Shown: one piece after another, positions 1 through 9,457 of the stretch
Numbering within the stretch: position 1 is the first letter of the stretch
How the letters are laid out: each line of letters begins with the position of its first letter
Assembly: GCA_016873845.1 (NCBI GenBank)
Contig: VGVX01000016.1
Span: forward strand, 1-44,373
DNA: 44,373 nt
Direction of reading: 5' to 3'
Origin: Ignavibacteria bacterium
GTDB lineage: Bacteria > Bacteroidota > Ignavibacteria > Ch128b
The notes under the pieces: model-generated
Told to the model about the DNA's origin: nothing
The model's input: the letters and a program-made list of their open reading frames with translations, nothing else
The model's database searches: none
Made by a program: the position numbers and the translations under genes

Positions 1-9
1 TTGTTGCAT
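1..9 (-). CDS. Start of the next cassette gene (three codons only)
   Basis: On the minus strand an ATG at position 9 is preceded by AAAGGA with about nine bases of spacing, a good ribosome binding site. It lies about 110 bases inside the cassette left of the first attC, where the other cassettes also begin their genes. Only the codons for Met-Gln-Gln fall in the window, so the product cannot be named. The call rests on position and ribosome binding site alone. Confidence 0.4.
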
Positions 10-119
10 AAAGATTTATCCTTTCGTTTTCGAGTAGGAGTTATCAGACTCGAAAAACTTCGAGACGGTCACAGGCGAACTCCATCGCCCTTTGTTTATT
101 AATGAGGCGGCACAATGAC

Positions 120-301
120 GCCTAACGTTTGGCAAAACACCGCAGTGATGTTGCGAACTCAAAAACGATGTGGCGACCGCCGCTATGAAAGACAAATTTT
201 CTTGCGGCGGGCGACACAAACCATATTCGTGAGCAACAGCATTGAGCGACAACTATAATTCCTTTTCAAATGTTGGAGCGTCGTTGTTGGGCGTGTTATG
301 T
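120..301 (-). repeat. attC site 1 (long cassette recombination site)
   Basis: The left core is GCCTAAC (120-126), which reads GTTAGGC on the cassette strand, and the right core is GTTATGT (295-301). Inside, GCGAACT (153-159) and GTGAGC (229-234) are flanked by GTTGC and GCAAC arms that pair. The centre forms a further GC-rich hairpin, with TGTGGCGACCGCCGC near 170-184 facing GCGGCGGGCGACACA near 204-218. At about 182 bp it is the longest site of the array. It ends the protease/AbiJ-like cassette, whose last gene stops 18 bases away. Confidence 0.75.
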
Positions 302-319
302 GAAGTGCGCCAACGGTCA

Positions 320-1117
320 TTATGCAATCTTTGATTTCTTCGCTAAGTATGTTGCAACAACAGCGGAGAGACCGACAATCAATTCAGCTTCTTCGCGAGT
401 CGGGATTCGTCCCTCGCGAAGATGTCTGGCCATCTCGGAAGCATAACCCCACGCTTTGGAAACAGAATCGTCCAAAGGTTTGGGAAGTAAATCGGGATAA
501 CGCTTGAGAATATCACCAAGTGTGGCCTTGTCGTTGCTTACATCTCGGGCAACACATTCGAGCGCGGCCATTGCATGCTGAACTGCGCCTGTTAGATCAG
601 CCTCAGGTCTGCGTGAGAGATCTCGAAGTGCCTCATGAATCTCGCTCTTAGCGGTAGTTCTCTTTGATGCCTCAAGAGCTTCAACCGCATTATTAACTGC
701 GGACTCAAATGATTCTGATCCTCGCGTTTCAATGATTCCTCCAACCATTTGCCAGCCAATGCCCGCTAGGCGGAAGAACGAGTTTATCTCGTCTTGAAAC
801 TGATTGGCTTGGCCCATTTGAAGGAGAGAGCGATATATTTCTTCTGTGATATCGTATACATAGAACCACTCACAACTCTGAACAAGCTGACTTACTTCGT
901 AGTCTATATTGGGATATTCAGACCAGTTGTTTGAATCTGGAATCTCCCGAAGAACTCTACAAATGATTTCCCTGAGATTCGATGGCTTCAGACCCAGTTC
1001 TTTTGCAATCTGAATGACAGCACCTCGAAATCGTGCTGGAGCATCTTCACGTATTGTGATTTCCCTCTCCTGTCCGGAAAGACTATGTCTACTGGAGAAG
1101 CGTGGTTGCTGTGCCAT
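320..1117 (-). CDS. AbiJ-like abortive-infection family protein
   Basis: This 265-residue protein resembles the AbiJ N-terminal domain 4 family. Recognisable features are an FSxRH start, an IREDAP segment (22-27), an NWSEYPNI stretch (64-71), CEWFYVYD (82-89), and NSFF..AGIGW then a TRG motif (112-133). The C-terminal part (about 160-260) looks like the helical Abi C-terminal module, with an ALRDLS...RPEADLTGAVQHAMAA pattern and ARHLREGR at 230-237, where AbiJ-type and HEPN-related proteins often carry a conserved R/H. Family members are linked to phage-triggered growth arrest. That role is inferred here. The start follows the protease stop by three bases, so the two genes are one transcription unit in one cassette. 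A direct RNase active site cannot be confirmed by eye. Confidence 0.7.
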   Translation of the reverse strand: MAQQPRFSSRHSLSGQEREITIREDAPARFRGAVIQIAKELGLKPSNLREIICRVLREIPDSNNWSEYPNIDYEVSQLVQSCEWFYVYDITEEIYRSLLQMGQANQFQDEINSFFRLAGIGWQMVGGIIETRGSESFESAVNNAVEALEASKRTTAKSEIHEALRDLSRRPEADLTGAVQHAMAALECVARDVSNDKATLGDILKRYPDLLPKPLDDSVSKAWGYASEMARHLREGRIPTREEAELIVGLSAVVATYLAKKSKIA

Positions 1118-1120
1118 TCA

Positions 1121-2197
1121 TTAATCCTCAACAAGCTCAAAATATAGAATGCGAAACTCAACTGTCGTGGAGGGAGTATCGTCCGCCATGAACTGATTCT
1201 CAGGCGATGTTCTTGTTGTGAGCTTCTTTATGCTTGGGTCAACTGCGCCCGTAACTCGCCTTGCTAAGCCGGCTGGCACAAGCTGTTTGTATTCTATTGG
1301 ATCTATGTCGATAACGTTGCCATCACGTCCGTAGAAGATGATCAGGCCGTATATGTTTCTCACATTAGTTCTGGAAACATTGCGCAAGGAATAGGAATAG
1401 TCTCCATAGCTCCAAAGAGTTTTTCGTGGATCGCCGTTCCACCGGAACTCGGAACCAACGATAGCGTCTTGCTGCGATCCCGACTCAAGGTATCGAAACA
1501 GGCCAACCTCTTTTTTCTGTAATTGAGTGAAGGGCTTTGGATGTTCACTGCCTACAACGGAAGGAAGGAAAGTGGAGGGAATGCAAAAATTGAGATTCTG
1601 TCCTCCCTTGAGTGTGGCAACAGCCACACCAATTACGTACCCCTTTTCATTAACGATGGGGCCTCCACTTGAACCGGGAGAAATCGGCGCGGTTATCTGA
1701 ATCAGTTTGCTGCTGCTAGTTTCATCAAGCGTGCGGATTCCGCTCACGATTCCCTGAGAGAAAGTGCCCTCAAGACCTCTCGGATTGCCGATTGCATACA
1801 CGACCTCTCCGATTTCGGGCAATTGGGTTAGAACCTTGACGGTCTTACCTTTCAGATCCGGAACAGAGAGAACAGCAATATCATTTGTTTCATCTACGTG
1901 GATTACACCGATAATCTCGCACTTCTGCTTCTTGTTCACGAGTTTTGCATAACCGCTCTTCGCTCCACGGATGACATGGTAGTTCGTTACAATGAAGCCC
2001 TCCTTTAGGATGAATCCGCTTCCGAATGCTAATGGTTGCCTATTCTCGTCTTCCGTCGATATCAGAACAGTGGATTCGAACAACTCCTTTGCAATCTCTT
2101 TGGGCTTTTGCGAAAGAGCGAGGGTCGGAAACAGAAACGAAAAGAGAATGAAACAAATAATGGCTTTCACATTGACGTTGGTTATTGATGGTATCAT
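1121..2197 (-). CDS. Exported trypsin-like (HtrA/DegP-type) serine protease
   Basis: Starting at the ATG at 2197 the protein has 358 residues. A GGAG ribosome binding site lies about 11 bases upstream. It begins with a hydrophobic signal segment (residues about 10-28, ending near ALSQ). The chymotrypsin fold carries its triad as His74 in TNYHVI, Asp106 in ETNDIAVL and Ser177 in SPGSSGGP. GNPRG (about 137-141) is also typical of DegP-like proteases. No PDZ domain follows. The C-terminal 120 residues are an unrecognised, probably beta-rich domain. The open frame extends upstream to 2479, but that part crosses attC site 2 and is not taken as coding. It sits directly upstream of the AbiJ-like gene. 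A secreted protease and a cytoplasmic toxin-like partner make an odd pair. Confidence 0.8.
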   Translation of the reverse strand: MIPSITNVNVKAIICFILFSFLFPTLALSQKPKEIAKELFESTVLISTEDENRQPLAFGSGFILKEGFIVTNYHVIRGAKSGYAKLVNKKQKCEIIGVIHVDETNDIAVLSVPDLKGKTVKVLTQLPEIGEVVYAIGNPRGLEGTFSQGIVSGIRTLDETSSSKLIQITAPISPGSSGGPIVNEKGYVIGVAVATLKGGQNLNFCIPSTFLPSVVGSEHPKPFTQLQKKEVGLFRYLESGSQQDAIVGSEFRWNGDPRKTLWSYGDYSYSLRNVSRTNVRNIYGLIIFYGRDGNVIDIDPIEYKQLVPAGLARRVTGAVDPSIKKLTTRTSPENQFMADDTPSTTVEFRILYFELVED

Positions 2198-2230
2198 CGG
2201 TTTTTGTTCTCCGAATAGTTGGCGCATTTC

Positions 2231-2355
2231 ACATAACGTTTGGCGTAACAACGCAACGCTGGAGCGAACTCCGATAAATCCAATTCCGTGAGCGAAAGCG
2301 TTGAGCCACAATAATCTCCTATCAAATGATGGCGACGTTGTTACGCTTGTTAGCT
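2231..2355 (-). repeat. attC site 2
   Basis: The cores are ACATAAC (2231-2237) and GTTAGCT (2349-2355). GCGTAACAACG in the left arm is perfectly complementary to CGTTGTTACGC in the right arm (11 bp). GCGAACT lies at 2264-2270, 33 bases from the left core start, and GTGAGC at 2288-2293. The site closes the hydrolase/oxidoreductase cassette and abuts the 5' end of the protease cassette. Confidence 0.85.
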
Positions 2356-2402
2356 GCCGCGTAGCCGTCATGAGATGATTATGCAGGTGACTGTCCATGT
2401 AG

Positions 2403-3344
2403 TCAGTTAACCTTAATTGCAACATTACCTTTCTTGTGTCCTTGTTCAACATACCTATGAGCATCGATGATATGCTCAAGAGGGAAGCACTTGTCGGTGA
2501 TTGGTTTGACTACGCCAGATTCTATGAGTTCCCTTATCCTGCCCAAGCGCTCTGAGCTACAAATGAGTGCGCTGTCGTCTATAGAGAGAAATTTGTGCTT
2601 GTCCGACATCCGGGCCCTGCAAGCCTGTTTCAATTCAGAAGTTCTTGCTTTTCCGACAGCGTCGAGCACGTAGTTGTATTCTTCCAACTTGGCGAGAGAA
2701 TCTTTGTGGGTATAATCCAGCGTTTTGTCTGCCCCCAATGATTTTACAAGATCGATTTTCTCTGTACTGCATACACCTGTTACTTCCGCACCAAGATGTT
2801 TTGCGTACTGGACGGCTATGGTACCAGAAGTCCCAGACGCGCCATAGATGAGAACCTTTTGTTTAGGTTGGATATGTGCTTGTTCAAGGAACTGCAAAGC
2901 GAGAAGACCACCGTATGCAGCTGAAGTTGCATCTTCAAAACCGATATTGCGCGGCTTTAGCGCAATACATCCCTGCTTAGAATCCGTTTCTTTCATGCAC
3001 TTGTAGTCTGCATATGCTCCAAGTGAAAAACCTGTTAGCCCGAATATTTGATCACCAACTTGGAAACGTCGTATTTTCGAGCCCACTTGTACAATTTCTC
3101 CAGACAATACTTCTCCGAGGATATCGTTCCTCGGTCTCGTAATGCCGATCATGATCCGCATCGGAATCCGAAACCTCAGCGGGATATCAGAACTGCGGAT
3201 AAAGATGTCACTATTCGTTACTGAGGCTGCAAATACCTTTATGAGGACTTCGTCATCGTTGGGCACGGGTACGTCACGCTCTACTATCTTAAATACTTCA
3301 GGTGGACCATACTTGGTGCAGATTGCTGCTTTCATTTTGTTCAT
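2403..3344 (-). CDS. MDR-family NAD(P)-dependent zinc-free oxidoreductase
   Basis: The protein has 313 residues and belongs to the medium-chain dehydrogenase/reductase superfamily of quinone-oxidoreductase type. The N-terminal GroES-like domain begins with MKAAICTKYGPPEV and includes an HtdxF-like segment (SVTNSDIFIR), a G(D/E)V-like ILGEVLSGEIVQVG and FQVGDQIFG. The Rossmann domain carries the nucleotide motif YGASGTSGTIAVQYAK (about residues 168-183). The catalytic-zinc Cys/His set of true alcohol dehydrogenases is not apparent, so reduction of a quinone or enone is more likely than alcohol oxidation. The ribosome binding site TAGGAG overlaps the stop codon of the upstream hydrolase gene, so the pair is translationally linked. 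The substrate cannot be told from sequence. Confidence 0.85.
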   Translation of the reverse strand: MNKMKAAICTKYGPPEVFKIVERDVPVPNDDEVLIKVFAASVTNSDIFIRSSDIPLRFRIPMRIMIGITRPRNDILGEVLSGEIVQVGSKIRRFQVGDQIFGLTGFSLGAYADYKCMKETDSKQGCIALKPRNIGFEDATSAAYGGLLALQFLEQAHIQPKQKVLIYGASGTSGTIAVQYAKHLGAEVTGVCSTEKIDLVKSLGADKTLDYTHKDSLAKLEEYNYVLDAVGKARTSELKQACRARMSDKHKFLSIDDSALICSSERLGRIRELIESGVVKPITDKCFPLEHIIDAHRYVEQGHKKGNVAIKVN

Positions 3345-3353
3345 TTTTCGCTC

Positions 3354-4406
3354 CTAAGGGTACTGAATGCTAAGGACTATGAGTCTCTGGAACAGATCGC
3401 TCAATTGTGACGGTCCAATATTATGGGCTGAAGCGATGTAGAAAATTGATCCCCTGACGCGAGCGAGAATCATTTGGCACGGTCCCATGTTACCTTCGTA
3501 CACTACTGCCTCACCCAGACCGGCGAAGTTTGATTTGCCAAATACTCCGAGTCCAAGTAAGTGGTCGCTGGTCTCATCGGAAACCGAGCCTCCGGCCGAG
3601 TACCATCGGGTCATTATCTTGAATTCTGGTTGTGTAGAGATATATGCGAAAGTGCGCATCGCATCAGTAGCACTTCCGATGAAACCGCCTGCGTAGCCGG
3701 GAGAAATCCAGTGGTACGGCCATGGCTTTGGATAACCTCGTGGATAATTTCCTTTCCCGTCGTCGATTCTGAGCGACACCGCATATGCACCGAAATACTG
3801 GCGGAATAGTTGCTGAACTGTCTTGCCTGTATGTAATTCGAGGATGCGACCGACAATGTTGAAGTTCGTATTGGAATACTCGAATCCAGTACCGGGAGAA
3901 AAAAGCAATGGTTGGTTGCGATATGCACAATCGATGGAATTCGTAGGAGTAATTGCCGAATCTGAGTGGATAGGTATTAGTGGTACATAGTCGCGAATCC
4001 CGCTGGAGTTTAGCAACAAGTGATTGATGGTGATAACGTGTGACTTAGTGAATCCACTGTCTTCGGGAAACCAGCGATCAATCGTTGTACCGAGATCGAT
4101 TCTTTCTTTCAAAACGATGAATGCAAGGCAGGGTTTTGATGTGGGGCATCCAAGTCTCAAATCATTCTTCTCGTCAATTGCTCCCTCTGTCCAGATTCGG
4201 GCGTTGGTATTCAGGCTATCGAGCCTTCCAAAAAGTATTCCAGCAACCCCACTCGTATCTGTTTGGAGAAAACTAGAAAGCACGGTTGTCAGGCTATCCT
4301 TCTTATCTCCTTTGACAACTGAGAAAGAGATGGAGAAGCTAAAAGCTATAAAAAAGAGAAGAAGCCCAAAGGCTCTTATCCTGGATTGTGTTAGTTGCTT
4401 GTTCAT
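3354..4406 (-). CDS. Beta-lactamase/DD-peptidase-fold protein with altered active site
   Basis: This 350-residue protein starts with an ATG eight bases after AGGAG and has a hydrophobic signal segment (residues 13-31). The fold is that of class C beta-lactamase/penicillin-binding-protein-type serine hydrolases: LLLNSSGIRDY (131-140) matches the family's LLxHTSG motif, and Y177-S-N179 is the YxN motif. The expected SxxK nucleophile motif reads P88-T-S-K91, because the codon is CCC where Ser would be TCC. The usual H-x-G third motif seems to be YEG. As read, the protein lacks the canonical nucleophile, so it may bind rather than cleave peptides, or it may be decaying. Ser90 next to the Lys is a possible but unusual substitute. 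It forms an operon with the oxidoreductase nine bases downstream. Confidence 0.75.
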   Translation of the reverse strand: MNKQLTQSRIRAFGLLLFFIAFSFSISFSVVKGDKKDSLTTVLSSFLQTDTSGVAGILFGRLDSLNTNARIWTEGAIDEKNDLRLGCPTSKPCLAFIVLKERIDLGTTIDRWFPEDSGFTKSHVITINHLLLNSSGIRDYVPLIPIHSDSAITPTNSIDCAYRNQPLLFSPGTGFEYSNTNFNIVGRILELHTGKTVQQLFRQYFGAYAVSLRIDDGKGNYPRGYPKPWPYHWISPGYAGGFIGSATDAMRTFAYISTQPEFKIMTRWYSAGGSVSDETSDHLLGLGVFGKSNFAGLGEAVVYEGNMGPCQMILARVRGSIFYIASAHNIGPSQLSDLFQRLIVLSIQYP

Positions 4407-4520
4407 AATTGTTCTCCTAAGCTTTCTTACGGCCAGCCGTGACGCATAATGTTGCTCATAAAGTCTACATGAGGGCGAACGTGATGATAAACCGCTTAAC
4501 TTCCAGCTCGGCTGCGTGGC

Positions 4521-4651
4521 AGCTAACGTGTCGGCAAATTACGCCGCCGTTTTGCGAACTATCAAATGACAAATTTCTCGTGAGCAAAACGGTGGAACGA
4601 ATACAATAACTCATCTCAATAAAATGAGTGACGTAATTTGCCGTGTTAGGC
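4521..4651 (-). repeat. attC site 3
   Basis: The cores are AGCTAAC (4521-4527) and GTTAGGC (4645-4651). The outer stem is a perfect 12-bp match, CGGCAAATTACG (4532-4543) with CGTAATTTGCCG (4632-4643). The inner stem pairs CCGTTTTGC with GCAAAACGG around GCGAACT (4554-4560) and GTGAGC (4580-4585). The right arm carries an extra small hairpin, ACTCAT/ATGAGT. This is the clearest attC of the array. Confidence 0.9.
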
Positions 4652-5122
4652 GAAGCGGCGGCGAACGTTTTTGTTCTCATTTTTATCACCTTGCGTCTGC
4701 TTTATAGGCACTTTGTTCTCTCTGTATTGTGACCAAGGAATTGAGGAATCAACAAGAGAAATAAACGAGAACCTTCGCCTGAATGACAGTATCTTCTCTA
4801 TTGAACTTTCAGAAGTCGAAATATCACGTGCAACAGTTTCGTTTTGCTTCACAAGATAGAAACCTAGAGAATCTAGGCGTTCAAAAAAAGAAAGGAGATA
4901 ATCGCCGATAAGCCAAAGGATTCGGGGGTCGGATTTCTGTGCAGACTTTGAAGAAGTGAGGAGCTCCCGAAGAACCCGTACGAGGGAGCCGTAGTCTTGT
5001 TCGATGTAACCCAATTCTTGCCGAATACTCTTGCGATTATCGTACAAAGTGTCTACAGAGGTAGTCGCTTTGAGATTACCACCTTGTTTAATAATTCTTA
5101 TAGGGAGCTTGGGAATTGTCAT
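4646..5122 (-). CDS. Uncharacterised partner of the GHKL ATPase
   Basis: The product of about 158 residues is not recognised. The ATG at 5122 overlaps the upstream stop codon as ATGA, the usual mark of translational coupling. A GTG 12 bases further up is a weaker alternative start. The protein is mostly helical and charged, with a central hydrophobic patch (ILWLIGDYLLSFF) and no clear signal peptide. The end is basic, NKNVRRRFA, and is encoded by the flank and arm of attC site 3. The stop TAA lies in the attC core itself. Its dependence on the ATPase gene suggests a two-component module. Function unknown. Confidence 0.65.
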   Translation of the reverse strand: MTIPKLPIRIIKQGGNLKATTSVDTLYDNRKSIRQELGYIEQDYGSLVRVLRELLTSSKSAQKSDPRILWLIGDYLLSFFERLDSLGFYLVKQNETVARDISTSESSIEKILSFRRRFSFISLVDSSIPWSQYRENKVPIKQTQGDKNENKNVRRRFA

Positions 5123-6648
5123 TGTCGACCCCACGCTCCGAGAAATCGGTTAAGAAATGCAAGAGGAGATTTTTCCGTGTCCAAGAAACTAGAGAGAACC
5201 CAAGCTACAGAAAGAGCAATGTGGTAGTTCTCGGATTGGCTATCTGATGCTTTTGTATAAGCTGAATGTGCCTTGTTTATCCAAATGGTACTGTCGGTAA
5301 GCCAACCGAGTTCAGGACGATCCGGATCATCATCAAACCCAAGCATTAGACCGGGGCGTTTCCGATGACCTTCATGTTTAGTTCCAGCTTCAGTAGGATC
5401 AAGAGAAGGTTCGATGCGTTCACCAGGTAAGTCGCCAGGGGCTACTTCAATTCCTTCTCCAGTCGTCTGTCCACCCCGTGTGCCTGTCATTGTATCAACA
5501 CCTTGTACGATTTGACCAATATTGGGTGCGTTTGGATCGGGGATGATTCCGGTTATAGGCGTACCTCTGCCTCTCCTTCCTAATAGTGGATTCAGTTCCG
5601 GAAATTCCGGGAGTAGGTTGACAATAATTTCTTCGATTTGCTTTTGCAGTGGACGTAGGTCTCGTTCGATTTGCTCTCGTTGAGTGCTGACTTCGCCAAG
5701 CTCTCGGAGTATCGGTTCAATTGCTTCTTGGATTGCTTTGCGATAGCGATAGTATTTTTGGAGACTGTTTACGTCTTTCAAGAAGTCGGCTTTATTCAAC
5801 GTGAGTATTTCCGAGAGTTGAGGTAGTTCAACGATGCCGGTTAGTCGAGCGGGGTTTCGTGGAGTAACGCCAATCCAGTCCCATCCACGCTTGATGACTT
5901 TGCCGTAGGTCGAGATGGCAATTCCTCGCTCTTCTTCTGGGAGTTCTTGTTTGTTCTTTGTTAGGAAACCGACGCCAACAGGACTGGCTTTCTTACCAAG
6001 CTGAACAAGAAACACGTTTGATGGTTGAGCGTCTTCATGTTCTGGCAGTCTCACAGGAACCTGATTGATTGTAAATTCTACCCCTTGCTTATAAATGTAT
6101 TTTAGGATTTTCTCCATGAAATCTGGATGCAAGAGAGGATAGAAATGTGTTTGGATAACATTAGCAACGAAGCTGGACTTGAGCAGGTCAGAATCTTTAT
6201 TGGGAAGCAAAAAAGTCACCGCAGTTCCAGTCGAAGACTTGACTAGATTCCCGGGGGCTACAAGTTGCCATGGTGCTCGTTGCGAATCATCAAGACGCCA
6301 CGTTGTAGATTTGTGATTGCTTTTGTTCTTTGTTTCTGTGATAACCTTGTCTGAAAGCAGTAGAGAAAGCTTTACTCCGACTCCAGCGAAACCGATTCCC
6401 TTGCCCCGTATTTTTGTTGTTGCGGCAATGTCATGGTATTCTTCGAAATCTTTCTCAGACATTCCCTTGCCGTTGTCGACAATAGAAAAAGTTTGTTTCG
6501 ATGAATCAATAAAGAAGTGTATTTGAGAAGCACCAGAATCAAGAGCATTTGCAATGAGTTCAGTAATGATTGCTTCCTCCTGTGGAAAAGGATAACTGTC
6601 CCGTATGTCTTCAAGAAGATGCTTAAGATTTACTCTTGTCTCACCCAT
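5119..6648 (-). CDS. GHKL (Hsp90/histidine-kinase-like) ATPase
   Basis: The protein has 509 residues and opens with a GHKL ATP-binding domain. The N box has E30...N34 in TELIANALDSGA, the G1 box is D58-N-G-K-G62, and the G2 box GKGIGFAGVG lies at 82-91. This arrangement is closest to Hsp90/MORC/MutL-type ATPases rather than two-component sensors, because no dimerisation His or receiver partner is present. The middle part (about 130-290) looks like a second alpha/beta domain. Residues 300-345 form a probable coiled coil. A Gly/Pro-rich linker (about 355-430) leads to a small helical C-terminus. GHKL ATPases paired with a small unknown gene recur in conflict and anti-phage loci, so defence is a reasonable inference but not shown. 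It sits alone with its overlapping partner in one cassette. Confidence 0.8.
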   Translation of the reverse strand: MGETRVNLKHLLEDIRDSYPFPQEEAIITELIANALDSGASQIHFFIDSSKQTFSIVDNGKGMSEKDFEEYHDIAATTKIRGKGIGFAGVGVKLSLLLSDKVITETKNKSNHKSTTWRLDDSQRAPWQLVAPGNLVKSSTGTAVTFLLPNKDSDLLKSSFVANVIQTHFYPLLHPDFMEKILKYIYKQGVEFTINQVPVRLPEHEDAQPSNVFLVQLGKKASPVGVGFLTKNKQELPEEERGIAISTYGKVIKRGWDWIGVTPRNPARLTGIVELPQLSEILTLNKADFLKDVNSLQKYYRYRKAIQEAIEPILRELGEVSTQREQIERDLRPLQKQIEEIIVNLLPEFPELNPLLGRRGRGTPITGIIPDPNAPNIGQIVQGVDTMTGTRGGQTTGEGIEVAPGDLPGERIEPSLDPTEAGTKHEGHRKRPGLMLGFDDDPDRPELGWLTDSTIWINKAHSAYTKASDSQSENYHIALSVAWVLSSFLDTEKSPLAFLNRFLGAWGRQ

Positions 6649-6681
6649 TGGATTTCCTTAATGTCTGTTCGCCGCCGTTTC

Positions 6682-6790
6682 GCCTAACGTATGCAATAAA
6701 AACGAATGTATGAAGCGAACTATAAATAAATATCGAATACCAAAATGTGAGCGGAATATTTTTCATTCTACGTTTTTATTGCTGTTAGCC
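6682..6790 (-). repeat. attC site 4
   Basis: The cores are GCCTAAC (6682-6688) and GTTAGCC (6784-6790). The outer stem pairs GCAATAAAAACG with CGTTTTTATTGC, a perfect 12 bp. GCGAACT lies at 6715-6721, again 33 bases from the core start, and GTGAGC at 6747-6752. At 109 bp this is the shortest site, lacking the roughly 28-base extra segment seen in the right arm of sites 1 to 3. The last codons of the membrane-protein gene lie inside it. Confidence 0.9.
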
Positions 6791-7176
6791 GCCGTGCTTA
6801 TAGTATTAATTGTTTGCCGAAATACGCCGATTAATCCATCGAAAATATTTATGAGTTTATCGGTGACTGAGAATAGAATTATAGTTATTACATTGTAAAC
6901 AAATAATCCAACGGAGAAAGCAATGAGAACAAAAGATGATAGTGGGCTTGACTTAAAAGACAATAATCCCCAGACAAACATAGCGAGCGACAATACAAAA
7001 TTGAATATTCGCAGAAGCAATATTAGTCTATTCTTGCCGACGGTTGTGTCTTGGTTTGGTTGGTTTACACTTGGGTTTGCAATAGCCCGCATAGTTTTTA
7101 CCTGCCAATACGAACCGAACAAGGTAGTCGCAGATGGTATGATGATAATGGCTATGGTTATCCAGTCTATATTCAT
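6763..7176 (-). CDS. Small multi-spanning membrane protein of a single-gene cassette
   Basis: This 137-residue protein has about three hydrophobic segments (residues 4-22, 50-72 and 80-104), with a polar loop rich in Asn and Gln between the first two. No family is recognised. The final residues NSNKNVE and the stop are encoded within attC site 4. It is collinear with the other cassette genes but has no strong ribosome binding site. An opposite-strand frame at 6923-7240 has a good GGAG ribosome binding site, encodes 105 residues with two hydrophobic segments, and ends inside attC site 5, so it is a real competitor. Length, orientation and smoother membrane-protein character favour the minus strand. 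Confidence 0.5.
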   Translation of the reverse strand: MNIDWITIAIIIIPSATTLFGSYWQVKTMRAIANPSVNQPNQDTTVGKNRLILLLRIFNFVLSLAMFVWGLLSFKSSPLSSFVLIAFSVGLFVYNVITIILFSVTDKLINIFDGLIGVFRQTINTISTAANSNKNVE

Positions 7177-7234
7177 TTTACTATTTATAGGATATTATGC
7201 TTTCGGCATAATAAAATCTTTATCAAAGCATGGC

Positions 7235-7367
7235 GGCTAACGTTTGCTGCTAAATTTCGTTGGGGAGTTCGAAGCAGCGGTCTTGTCCCCCGCTAAAATA
7301 GTTGCCAATATACAAAAATAATTCCTATCTAACCATCTGCCCCAATGGAATTTAGCAGCTGTTAGGT
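7235..7367 (-). repeat. attC site 5 (nearest the recombinase)
   Basis: The cores are GGCTAAC (7235-7241) and GTTAGGT (7361-7367). The left arm from about 7246 and the right arm before 7361 are complementary over roughly 20 positions with two mismatches (GCTGCTAAATT...TTGGGG). It lacks the GCGAACT/GTGAGC pair of the other four sites, having GAGTTCGAAGC instead, so it belongs to a different attC subtype. It closes the CNNM cassette. Confidence 0.85.
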
Positions 7368-7375
7368 GGCGTTTT

Positions 7376-8440
7376 TTATTCGTCCTTTTTCTGAATTTGC
7401 TCTAAAATATTGTACTTAGTCTGACGAGCCTTCCATCTATCGCGTGCAAACTTTTGCATATCTGTTATGGTATCCTTTTCGTCAATTATTTCTAGACCAA
7501 GTAATGTTTCAATTATGTCTTCTAATGTTACAATGCCGTCTAGCCCACCGTATTCATCAACTATCAAAGCGATGTGCTCCTTTTCTTCCAGTAATTTTTC
7601 CCAGAGGGTAAAAAGAAACATGGTTTCAGGTACGACTATAATTTCTCTTTTAATATCTCTAAGTTTTAGTTCGTGTTGGTCTTCTGCTAGTTTCTCAAAA
7701 ACAGATTGCCTAAAAACATAACCCATTATGTTCTCGTCTTTTCCCGAGTAAATGGGAATTCTTGAGAATTTCAAGTAATCCTTATTTTTTAAAAAATCTG
7801 CTAACGAAAGATTCTCATCGGCAACTACCAAAACAACTCTGGGCGTCATTATTTCGGTAACCCTAACATTTTTAAGTTTCAGAAGATTCTGAATTATTTT
7901 ATGTTCTTTGTCGGAAAAAACTCCTTCATCATTCCCAATGCTAGCAAGCGCAGCAATTTCTTCCCTACTCGTTGTTTGCTCTTGACGATTTTTAGAAATG
8001 GCTTTTGTTATAAATGCAGAAATCAGAACCAGAGGATAGGTAATAAAAATCATTACACGGATAATCGATGAAGTATACTTCGCCAAACTTCTCCAGTATC
8101 TGGCACCAATTGTTTTAGGAAAGATTTCGGTCAGAACTAAGATTAGGATTGTAAGTATTGCTGAAACTAATCCAAAGTATTCATCCCCAAATATTATAAC
8201 AGCTTGAGCACCTACACCGGCTGCACCAATCGTGTGAGCAACAGTATTCAACGAAAGTATTGCCGACAGTGGTTTGTCAATATTACTCTTGAGTTTTAAA
8301 AGTTTATTTGCCCAAGAGTTTCCATTTTCATATTTAACAATCAGAAATGAATTTGGAGTAGAAAGCAAAACAGCCTCCATTATTGAACAAATGAACGAAA
8401 TAATCAGGGCAAGAAATAGATAGGAAAGAAGTAGTACCAT
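7376..8440 (-). CDS. CNNM/CBS-domain membrane protein (hemolysin C/CorC-related family)
   Basis: Starting at the ATG at 8440 the protein has 354 residues. A TTG four codons upstream is possible but would only add MKEK. Residues 1 to about 150 form the CNNM transmembrane domain, with LLSYLFLALIISFICSIMEA at the N-terminus and the family signature TEIFPKTIGARY. Two CBS domains follow, with EIMTPR just before the first and DEYGGLDGIVTLEDIIE in the second. Relatives export Mg2+ or Co2+ or confer divalent-metal tolerance. The usual C-terminal CorC/HlyC domain is absent, and the protein ends soon after the second CBS domain. It is the first cassette after the attI-like site and has lower G+C than the next ones, close to the host background. 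Confidence 0.9.
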   Translation of the reverse strand: MVLLLSYLFLALIISFICSIMEAVLLSTPNSFLIVKYENGNSWANKLLKLKSNIDKPLSAILSLNTVAHTIGAAGVGAQAVIIFGDEYFGLVSAILTILILVLTEIFPKTIGARYWRSLAKYTSSIIRVMIFITYPLVLISAFITKAISKNRQEQTTSREEIAALASIGNDEGVFSDKEHKIIQNLLKLKNVRVTEIMTPRVVLVVADENLSLADFLKNKDYLKFSRIPIYSGKDENIMGYVFRQSVFEKLAEDQHELKLRDIKREIIVVPETMFLFTLWEKLLEEKEHIALIVDEYGGLDGIVTLEDIIETLLGLEIIDEKDTITDMQKFARDRWKARQTKYNILEQIQKKDE

Positions 8441-8502
8441 TTTTTCTTTCAAAGATAAATATTTTTCAAAGGAGATTGTTGTTTACATCAGTTCAAAATG
8501 CC

Positions 8503-8581
8503 ACCTAACTAGTGTAACAAAGCCATATGGCGTCTTTCATACCAATTTGGTTGGATAAACGCCATAATATTATTTTAACTT
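8503..8581 (-). other. attI-like primary recombination site
   Basis: The core ACCTAAC (8503-8509) reads GTTAGGT on the cassette strand and is identical to the right core of attC site 5, so it marks the start of the first cassette. The 72 bases between it and the recombinase stop codon hold nested symmetry: GCCATATGGC (8522-8531), ATGGCGT (8527-8533) pairing with ACGCCAT (8559-8565), and ACCAATTTGGT (8541-8551) inside that loop. It lacks the double long arms of an attC. Placement beside the recombinase and one single core fit an attI. The hairpin could also act as the recombinase terminator. Confidence 0.65.
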
Positions 8582-9457
8582 TCATTTAATTCCCTTTAAC
8601 ATTACCGCTTTATCTAATGGATTAACAATATTAGTCATAGATTTCTTACTCACGTGTGTATAAATTTCTGTTGTTTTTGAACTGCTGTGTCCAAGCAGTT
8701 CTTGTATGAACCTTAAATCTGTTCCGCCTTCTAATAAGTGTGTGGCAAATGAATGCCTAAGTGTATGTACTGTTACTCTTTTTTTAATACCGGTTTTTTC
8801 AACAGCACGGTTAAAAACATTTTGTATACTTCTTTCTGCTAAATGTACTCTTCCATTTCCACCTTCAAATAAGAATTCTTTAGGCTTATATTCTTTGTAG
8901 TATTGCTTAAGTTTTTCAAGCATGAATTCAGATAACAAAGTATATCTATCCTTTTTACCTTTTGCTTGCCTAATATGTATAAGTTTTCTGATACTATCAA
9001 TATCTCCTATTTTAATTCTTACGGCTTCACCTACACGTAACCCTGCAGAGTAAATCAACATCAGTAATGTTTTATGTTTTAGGTTATTAATAGAGTTAAA
9101 TATACTGATCACTTCTTCTTGGCTCAATATATCGGGGAGTTTTTTCTGCTTTTTTGGTCGTGGAATAGAATTAATAATTAAGGGTATTTTATAAAGCTCG
9201 ATGTAAAGAAATCGAAGAGCATTAATCATTTGATTTATCGAAGATGTTTTCTGTTTCTTATCTTCAATCAAATAAAGCAAATATTTTTTAATCTCATCGT
9301 TCAAAATATTTCTTGGGTGAACAGGCTTAAAGTAATTAACAAATGCTCTCAGACAGCTTAAATAAGATTTGATTGTTTTATAACTATAATTCCGTAATCT
9401 CATCTCGCTTCGGATGGTTTCAAAAAATCCTGGTGTTTTAGATAGAATTGTTTTCAA
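8582..9457 (-). CDS. Tyrosine recombinase of the cassette array (XerC/D-like, not classical IntI)
   Basis: This 291-residue tyrosine recombinase has a SAM-like N-terminal core-binding domain (about 10-95) and a complete catalytic set: Arg141 (SAGLRVGE), a Lys near 167 (AKGKKDR), His231 and Arg234 (HTLRHSF), His257 (LLGHSS) and Tyr266 (YTHVS). Classical IntI enzymes carry an extra segment of roughly 20-35 residues before the HTLRH motif, used to hold the folded attC. Here the stretch from 170 to 231 is the short Xer form, with no such insertion. No ATG precedes residue 19, so TTG at 9457 is the likely start. It is the only recombinase seen, 73 bases from the attI-like core, and reads toward the cassettes. 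Inference: it may integrate them, or the true IntI may be elsewhere. Confidence 0.85.
   Translation of the reverse strand: MKTILSKTPGFFETIRSEMRLRNYSYKTIKSYLSCLRAFVNYFKPVHPRNILNDEIKKYLLYLIEDKKQKTSSINQMINALRFLYIELYKIPLIINSIPRPKKQKKLPDILSQEEVISIFNSINNLKHKTLLMLIYSAGLRVGEAVRIKIGDIDSIRKLIHIRQAKGKKDRYTLLSEFMLEKLKQYYKEYKPKEFLFEGGNGRVHLAERSIQNVFNRAVEKTGIKKRVTVHTLRHSFATHLLEGGTDLRFIQELLGHSSSKTTEIYTHVSKKSMTNIVNPLDKAVMLKGIK

Follow-up and report, generated by a model that had tools for sequence, protein, structure and literature searches.

This analysis indicated that the tyrosine recombinase encoded at 8582..9457 (minus strand) in the window, i.e., the whole 44,373-nucleotide stretch of DNA from an Ignavibacteria bacterium analysed here, is probably the integrase of an integron of reverse layout, which lacks the IntI-specific additional (I2) domain and which, judging from the organisation of the locus and its relatives, would recombine folded attC sites without extrahelical bases with a double-stranded attI. 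This integrase is not a chance neighbour of the array beside it. There appears to be a second way of capturing genes, which standard searches would miss.

The Recombinase and Its Missing Domain

The 291-aa protein (TTG start) combines the Pfam domains Phage_integrase and Phage_int_SAM_4, and its catalytic set is complete, namely R141, K166, H231, R234, H257, and Y266. The first-pass annotation had indeed described all catalytic residues as present, its Lys167 being K166 in ORF numbering. The residues R, H, R, H, and Y are kept in 59/59 aligned I2-less relatives, and the lysine in 58/59. The same annotation had read the stretch between this lysine and His231 as the short Xer form, devoid of the IntI segment, and this is confirmed by spacing, segment length, the integron integrase model and the closest structure. 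The distance from the lysine patch to HxxR is 58-64 aa in the window protein and most I2-less relatives, as compared with 59-66 aa in Xer and exactly 100 in 29/29 canonical IntIs. Between window residues 187 and 212, nearly all I2-less proteins have 25-28 residues, where Xer proteins have 26-33 and all 29 canonical IntIs have 67. The TIGR02249 model (integron integrase) gives the window protein 233 bits, under the curated cut-off of 265, and the six-frame match is split into model positions 2-179 and 233-314; positions 180-232 being unmatched, the IntI-specific stretch is missing. The top PDB match, V. cholerae IntI4 (2a3v), is also aligned in two pieces, with chain residues ~181-238 lacking a counterpart in the window protein. 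The HMM alignment thus finds no additional domain around patch III.

NF040815, a model whose name (site-specific tyrosine recombinase XerA / integron integrase) takes in integron integrases too, was passed with 232.5 bits (cut-off 220), while the XerD and XerC models gave 189 and 185 bits. An AlphaFold2 prediction from three sequences reached a mean pLDDT of 54.5 and was set aside. No relative of the window protein was found in a viral contig collection.

The Cassette Array and Its Putative attI

An attI-like site and five attC lie directly 3' of the integrase, on the same strand. The putative attI (8503..8567, minus strand), with repeated AAACGCCAT-type arms, has its G^TT crossover between 8509 and 8508, 75 nt past the first base of the integrase stop codon; it is recognised by sequence, from its position and from a homology break seen between related loci (see below). 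Six cassette starts follow this crossover on the minus strand, five of them with a complete attC, before the array runs into the contig end. Cassette 1 (7241..8508) encodes a CNNM/CBS-domain protein (ORF 7376-8452) and ends in attC1 (7235..7367; covariance model score 59.5 bits), which has a bulge-free L stem and whose R'' GCCACCTAAC is the complement of the same cassette's start GTTAGGTGGC. Cassette 2 (6688..7240) encodes a 137-aa protein without family (ORF 6763-7176) and is followed by attC2 (6682..6790; 71.4 bits). Cassette 3 (4527..6687) carries a gene for a HATPase_c protein (5119-6648) together with a 162-aa ORF (4646-5134), and ends in attC3 (4521..4651; 116.8 bits). In cassette 4 (2237..4526), a beta-lactamase-fold serine hydrolase (3354-4406) precedes a zinc-type alcohol dehydrogenase (2403-3344) and attC4 (2231..2355; 99.1 bits). 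Cassette 5 (126..2236) holds genes for a trypsin-like peptidase (1121-2230) and an AbiJ_NTD4 protein (320-1117), and its attC5 (120..301; 65.6 bits) is longer and less regular. Of cassette 6 (1..125), cut by the contig end, only the start is present. All these features are on the minus strand. A stem-based scan at a strict threshold found four attC on the integrase strand, versus none in five dinucleotide shuffles, and the fifth was recovered by a covariance model built from attC sites of this type.

Two observations concern the cargo. A fluoride riboswitch (28-98, minus strand) lies in the leader of the truncated sixth cassette, which makes it a riboswitch inside a gene cassette. The AbiJ_NTD4 protein of cassette 5 is PDC-S32-like, and its companion peptidase resembles those of defence systems; this cassette is possibly a phage-defence cassette.

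The start of a true cassette (GTTNNNNNN) completes the R box of its own attC once the cassette is excised. In the window, consecutive pairs of start and own R'' match at 6/6 in 3/3 testable cases, so that the array consists of cassettes ending in an attC with an R'' complementary to their own start. Over ten loci, the start core matched its own R'' at 5/6 or better in 20/22 pairs, with a mean match of 5.41 versus 3.37 for other pairings within the same arrays. In a wider automatic set, this level was reached by 33/45 pairs, versus 13.5% by chance.

The attI was also recognisable in relatives. Where the first cassette could be followed back to attI, most loci have G^TT at 40-107 nt beyond the stop codon; a palindrome such as AAAAACGAATGTCGTTTTT, with arms similar to the attC L box, often comes before it. 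In the orthologous pairs L037/L146, L143/L148, and L145/L148 (70-87% identity), homology is unbroken through the integrase and stops at +67-69 nt, about 10 nt past G^TT. Beyond the crossover, cassettes are unrelated between orthologous loci, L145, with only 87 nt of 3' sequence, showing the end of homology and little of the cassette. Such a break just past G^TT, followed by unrelated cassettes, is what cassette exchange at attI produces.

attC Hairpins Without Extrahelical Bases

In four window attC, folding of the bottom strand gives an L stem that is continuous and without bulge (z -3.2 to -6.0), and extrahelical bases are lacking from their L'' box. Using a bulge-tolerant stem alignment for both groups, an extrahelical pair was found in 3/90 attC beside I2-less genes versus 20/24 beside canonical IntI of the same class (Fisher p=1.7e-15), the canonical set being small (24 sites, 10 loci); GGCGCT[C]AAGCTG[A]CGG is an example from the canonical side. 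In a class 1 integron plasmid (L181) scanned as a control, no more than two attC were detected; their scores were weak, which fits bulged stems, and the plasmid was left out of the counts.

The hairpin stems are kept by covariation. A 12-pair stem, which starts 1 nt after AAC (A in 44/44) and ends 4 nt before GTT (NNAC), is common to 44 I2-less sites in 17 loci. Pairing holds in 94% of cells, versus 56% (max 63%) when arms are permuted among sites and 38-44% when they are slid, and 49 pair types are seen over the 12 pairs. This bears on the reading in which the I2-less enzyme acts by double-stranded, Xer-like recombination at GTT junctions, the hairpins serving another use, e.g., termination. 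The Xer-length catalytic domain, the score above the NF040815 cut-off and an attI that is a palindromic site of double-stranded type would all suit such an enzyme. We nevertheless consider it unlikely, since R'' complements the start of its own cassette, which restores the full stem only in the excised circle, since the stems covary, and since the spacer asymmetry is constant; these are signatures of a recombination hairpin.

Association of I2-Less Enzymes With Arrays

Relatives of the I2-less type (E<=1e-48) were found in 71/294 genomes of the class and canonical IntI in 52/294, the latter in 5/16 of the genomes holding the I2-less type. The loci sampled comprised 64 I2-less and 26 canonical ones, and were searched with attC scanners derived from sites in the window. 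Around the 26 closest loci (at least 300 bits), 54 attC were located on the 3' side (4.11 per 10 kb) and one 5' of the gene (0.06 per 10 kb), which is about a 65-fold enrichment. Many relatives come from metagenome or fragmented assemblies which end just after the integrase; where at least 1 kb of 3' sequence was available, 15/17 of the closest loci had attC there. Considering all I2-less loci, 86/90 of the 3' sites have the orientation of the integrase. At 170-240 bits, attC density was 0.91 per 10 kb 3' versus 0.94 5', with no overall enrichment. Not every I2-less relative is therefore an array enzyme, and we keep the claim of association to near relatives and to the clear cases L044, L045, L047, and L176.

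Layout varies in the class. A more distant I2-less relative (L061/L049, G005:C7, 7426-8984) has attC-like sites 5', in the divergent classical layout, and is an exception to the 3' one. Canonical integrons of the class occur in both layouts, divergent (attC 5' of intI: L130, L134, L122, L123, L133) and co-directional (attC 3' of intI: L119, L054, L120).

The first-pass annotation had left a choice between a cassette recombinase of a new type and a gene set beside the array by chance. The comparative data favour the former, as arrays beside such genes are seen again in distant genera, several genomes with arrays have no canonical IntI, and the attC beside I2-less enzymes are without extrahelical bases. 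Alternatively, a canonical IntI from another locus could mobilise the array in trans, or one that has since decayed could have done so formerly, with the I2-less gene as a bystander. Besides the canonical enzymes present in the class and in some genomes holding the I2-less type, this reading draws on relics of canonical IntI in the same genome (C29:4208-4396, C126:650-718, C86:110-184; L064-L066), which retain about 50 N-terminal residues (identity at most 63%) and, from the C-terminal part, 23 residues that are the same as in other IntIs. They suggest from sequence that this lineage once carried a canonical integron, and past action of another enzyme is thus possible. The search for another intI, proposed in the first-pass annotation, found only these decayed fragments and no intact second canonical IntI in this 98% complete genome. 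Arrays also stand beside I2-less genes in G011, G012, G022, G039 (a single contig), G055, and G057, where no TIGR02249 match exceeds the cut-off. Together with the 3' enrichment and an attC type that tracks the neighbouring integrase, this makes mobilisation in trans very improbable.

Elsewhere in the same genome, the covariance model located two attC on C109, one on C76, two on C5 and one on C4. These sites of the same type are away from the integrase, and those at C5:61201-62149 and C4:59100-59246 are inside long contigs. Near an IntI relic of this genome (L066 3932-4019, minus strand) and inside an I2-less array of another genome (L037, 3' +3168), there is another type of hairpin, whose TTTTATCCG/CGGATAAAA stem ends in AACGTTAG.

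Phylogeny

Placement in a tree, also proposed in the first-pass annotation, grouped the window protein with IntI and not with Xer, the split between Xer and the group of I2-less proteins plus canonical IntI having 100/100 support. All canonical IntIs fall into one clade (100/100) with no I2-less row inside, and the trees gave no support for loss of I2 within canonical IntI. In a quick larger tree, the 28-member clade of the window protein stands beside IntI (support 93), and an AU test favoured neither one clade nor a grade for the I2-less proteins (p=0.485). Secondary loss of I2, which would make the enzyme a dead or weakened remnant next to an array that no longer changes, is hardly credible: stops do break part of the I2-less family and integron debris exists in the same genome, but the catalytic residues are conserved among relatives, the canonical clade excludes I2-less rows, and related genomes have exchanged the cassettes at attI.

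Proposed Mechanism and Implications

From a mechanistic point of view, the I2-less integrase would exchange one strand of a folded attC, with the crossover in the AAC/GTT R box, and join it at G^TT to a double-stranded attI, while attC x attC recombination would shuffle cassettes. The unpaired spacer, with 1 nt ("A") on one side and 4 nt ("NNAC") on the other, may set polarity by its asymmetry in place of extrahelical bases, and second-strand exchange would be blocked otherwise, perhaps by an uninterrupted L stem which offers no cleavable site. Integrase and cassettes being co-directional, one promoter could serve both.

In IntI, the I2 domain docks the extrahelical bases and blocks the second strand exchange, and it is said to be absent from other proteins (PMC7790495, PMC4792948). 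The pairing of I2 with the extrahelical bases of attC is regarded as what permits the use of single-stranded hairpins and averts a lethal second strand exchange (PMC4792948, PMC7790495). According to Messier & Roy (2001), as cited in PMC7790495, I2 is necessary for cassette capture by IntI, which counts against the explanation preferred here. A related lineage with full arrays, and with neither I2 nor extrahelical bases, makes the necessity of both directly testable, and bears on how polarity is otherwise set and on the order of integron evolution. We propose, tentatively, that hairpin cassette recombination might be older than both the I2 helix and the extrahelical bases. The I2-less lineage would then be a surviving early integron with another device for polarity and second-strand control, and its enzymes would be the overlooked recombinases of many attC clusters without an integrase in Bacteroidota-related bacteria. 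A search of the open-access literature, with preprints and subscription papers outside its scope, found no prior description of I2-less integrons.

Relatives also occur on plasmids. On resistance plasmids (L184 6028-8260; FJ012881.1 and several Acinetobacter plasmids), the tnpF gene directly before tet(X3) encodes an incomplete relative of the I2-less type, which shares 54% identity with the window protein; an attI-like ACGCCATTTGGCGT..G^TTATGTGCC comes after tnpF and the 5' half of an attC-like site after tet(X3). This arrangement of sites suggests that an I2-less integron may have brought in tet(X3) as a cassette. Plasmid-borne I2-less integrases were also seen in Chryseobacterium sp. SNU WT5 (L050 11749-24783) and Rufibacter (L053 9346-20804), and behind them lie series of small ORFs in the same orientation, with attC-like sites; in the former, a conserved 142-nt palindromic repeat occurs three times between genes.

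Comparison With Known Systems

The window protein shares with IntI (TIGR02249; IntI1, V. cholerae IntI4 2a3v), its nearest group in the tree, a SAM-like N-terminal domain, the R-K-H-R-H-Y catalytic domain and an IntI-type C-terminal end (..NPLD/..SPLD), and the two systems have in common an attI beside the gene and a cassette array with hairpin attC and R''/R' complementarity. It differs from IntI by the absence of I2, which shortens the distance to HxxR by ~40 aa, and by its score below the TIGR02249 cut-off, while the attC of the window type differ by an uninterrupted L stem, with no extrahelical bases and with a 1/4-nt asymmetric spacer. With XerA/XerC/XerD, it shares the catalytic-region length, the domain plan and the passing of NF040815; however, it falls outside Xer and adjoins attI and attC instead of standing alone with dif, and separate XerC/XerD-like genes exist in its genome (C1:95761, C26:27166).

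Homology-independent integration of resistance genes was described in 2026 in Riemerella anatipestifer (PMC13148043), also a member of the Bacteroidota, where a gene whose 3' side carries a hairpin of 140 nt, compared there to attC, is inserted site-specifically; unlike here, no recombinase was identified there. By analogy, a recombinase of the I2-less type could explain this integration. A plasmid search with the Chryseobacterium I2-less protein for a Riemerella relative returned only two Chryseobacterium records at E<=1e-70.

IntegronFinder tells IntI by its extra domain, and attC clusters lacking an integron integrase are labelled CALIN (PMC9024848). Standard integron callers would probably list arrays such as that of the window under this label. 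Since tools which recognise integrases by the extra domain would call such arrays integrase-less, integron counts outside Proteobacteria may be too low. Unlike a CALIN, the window array has a dedicated recombinase, of a type which the search does not recognise.
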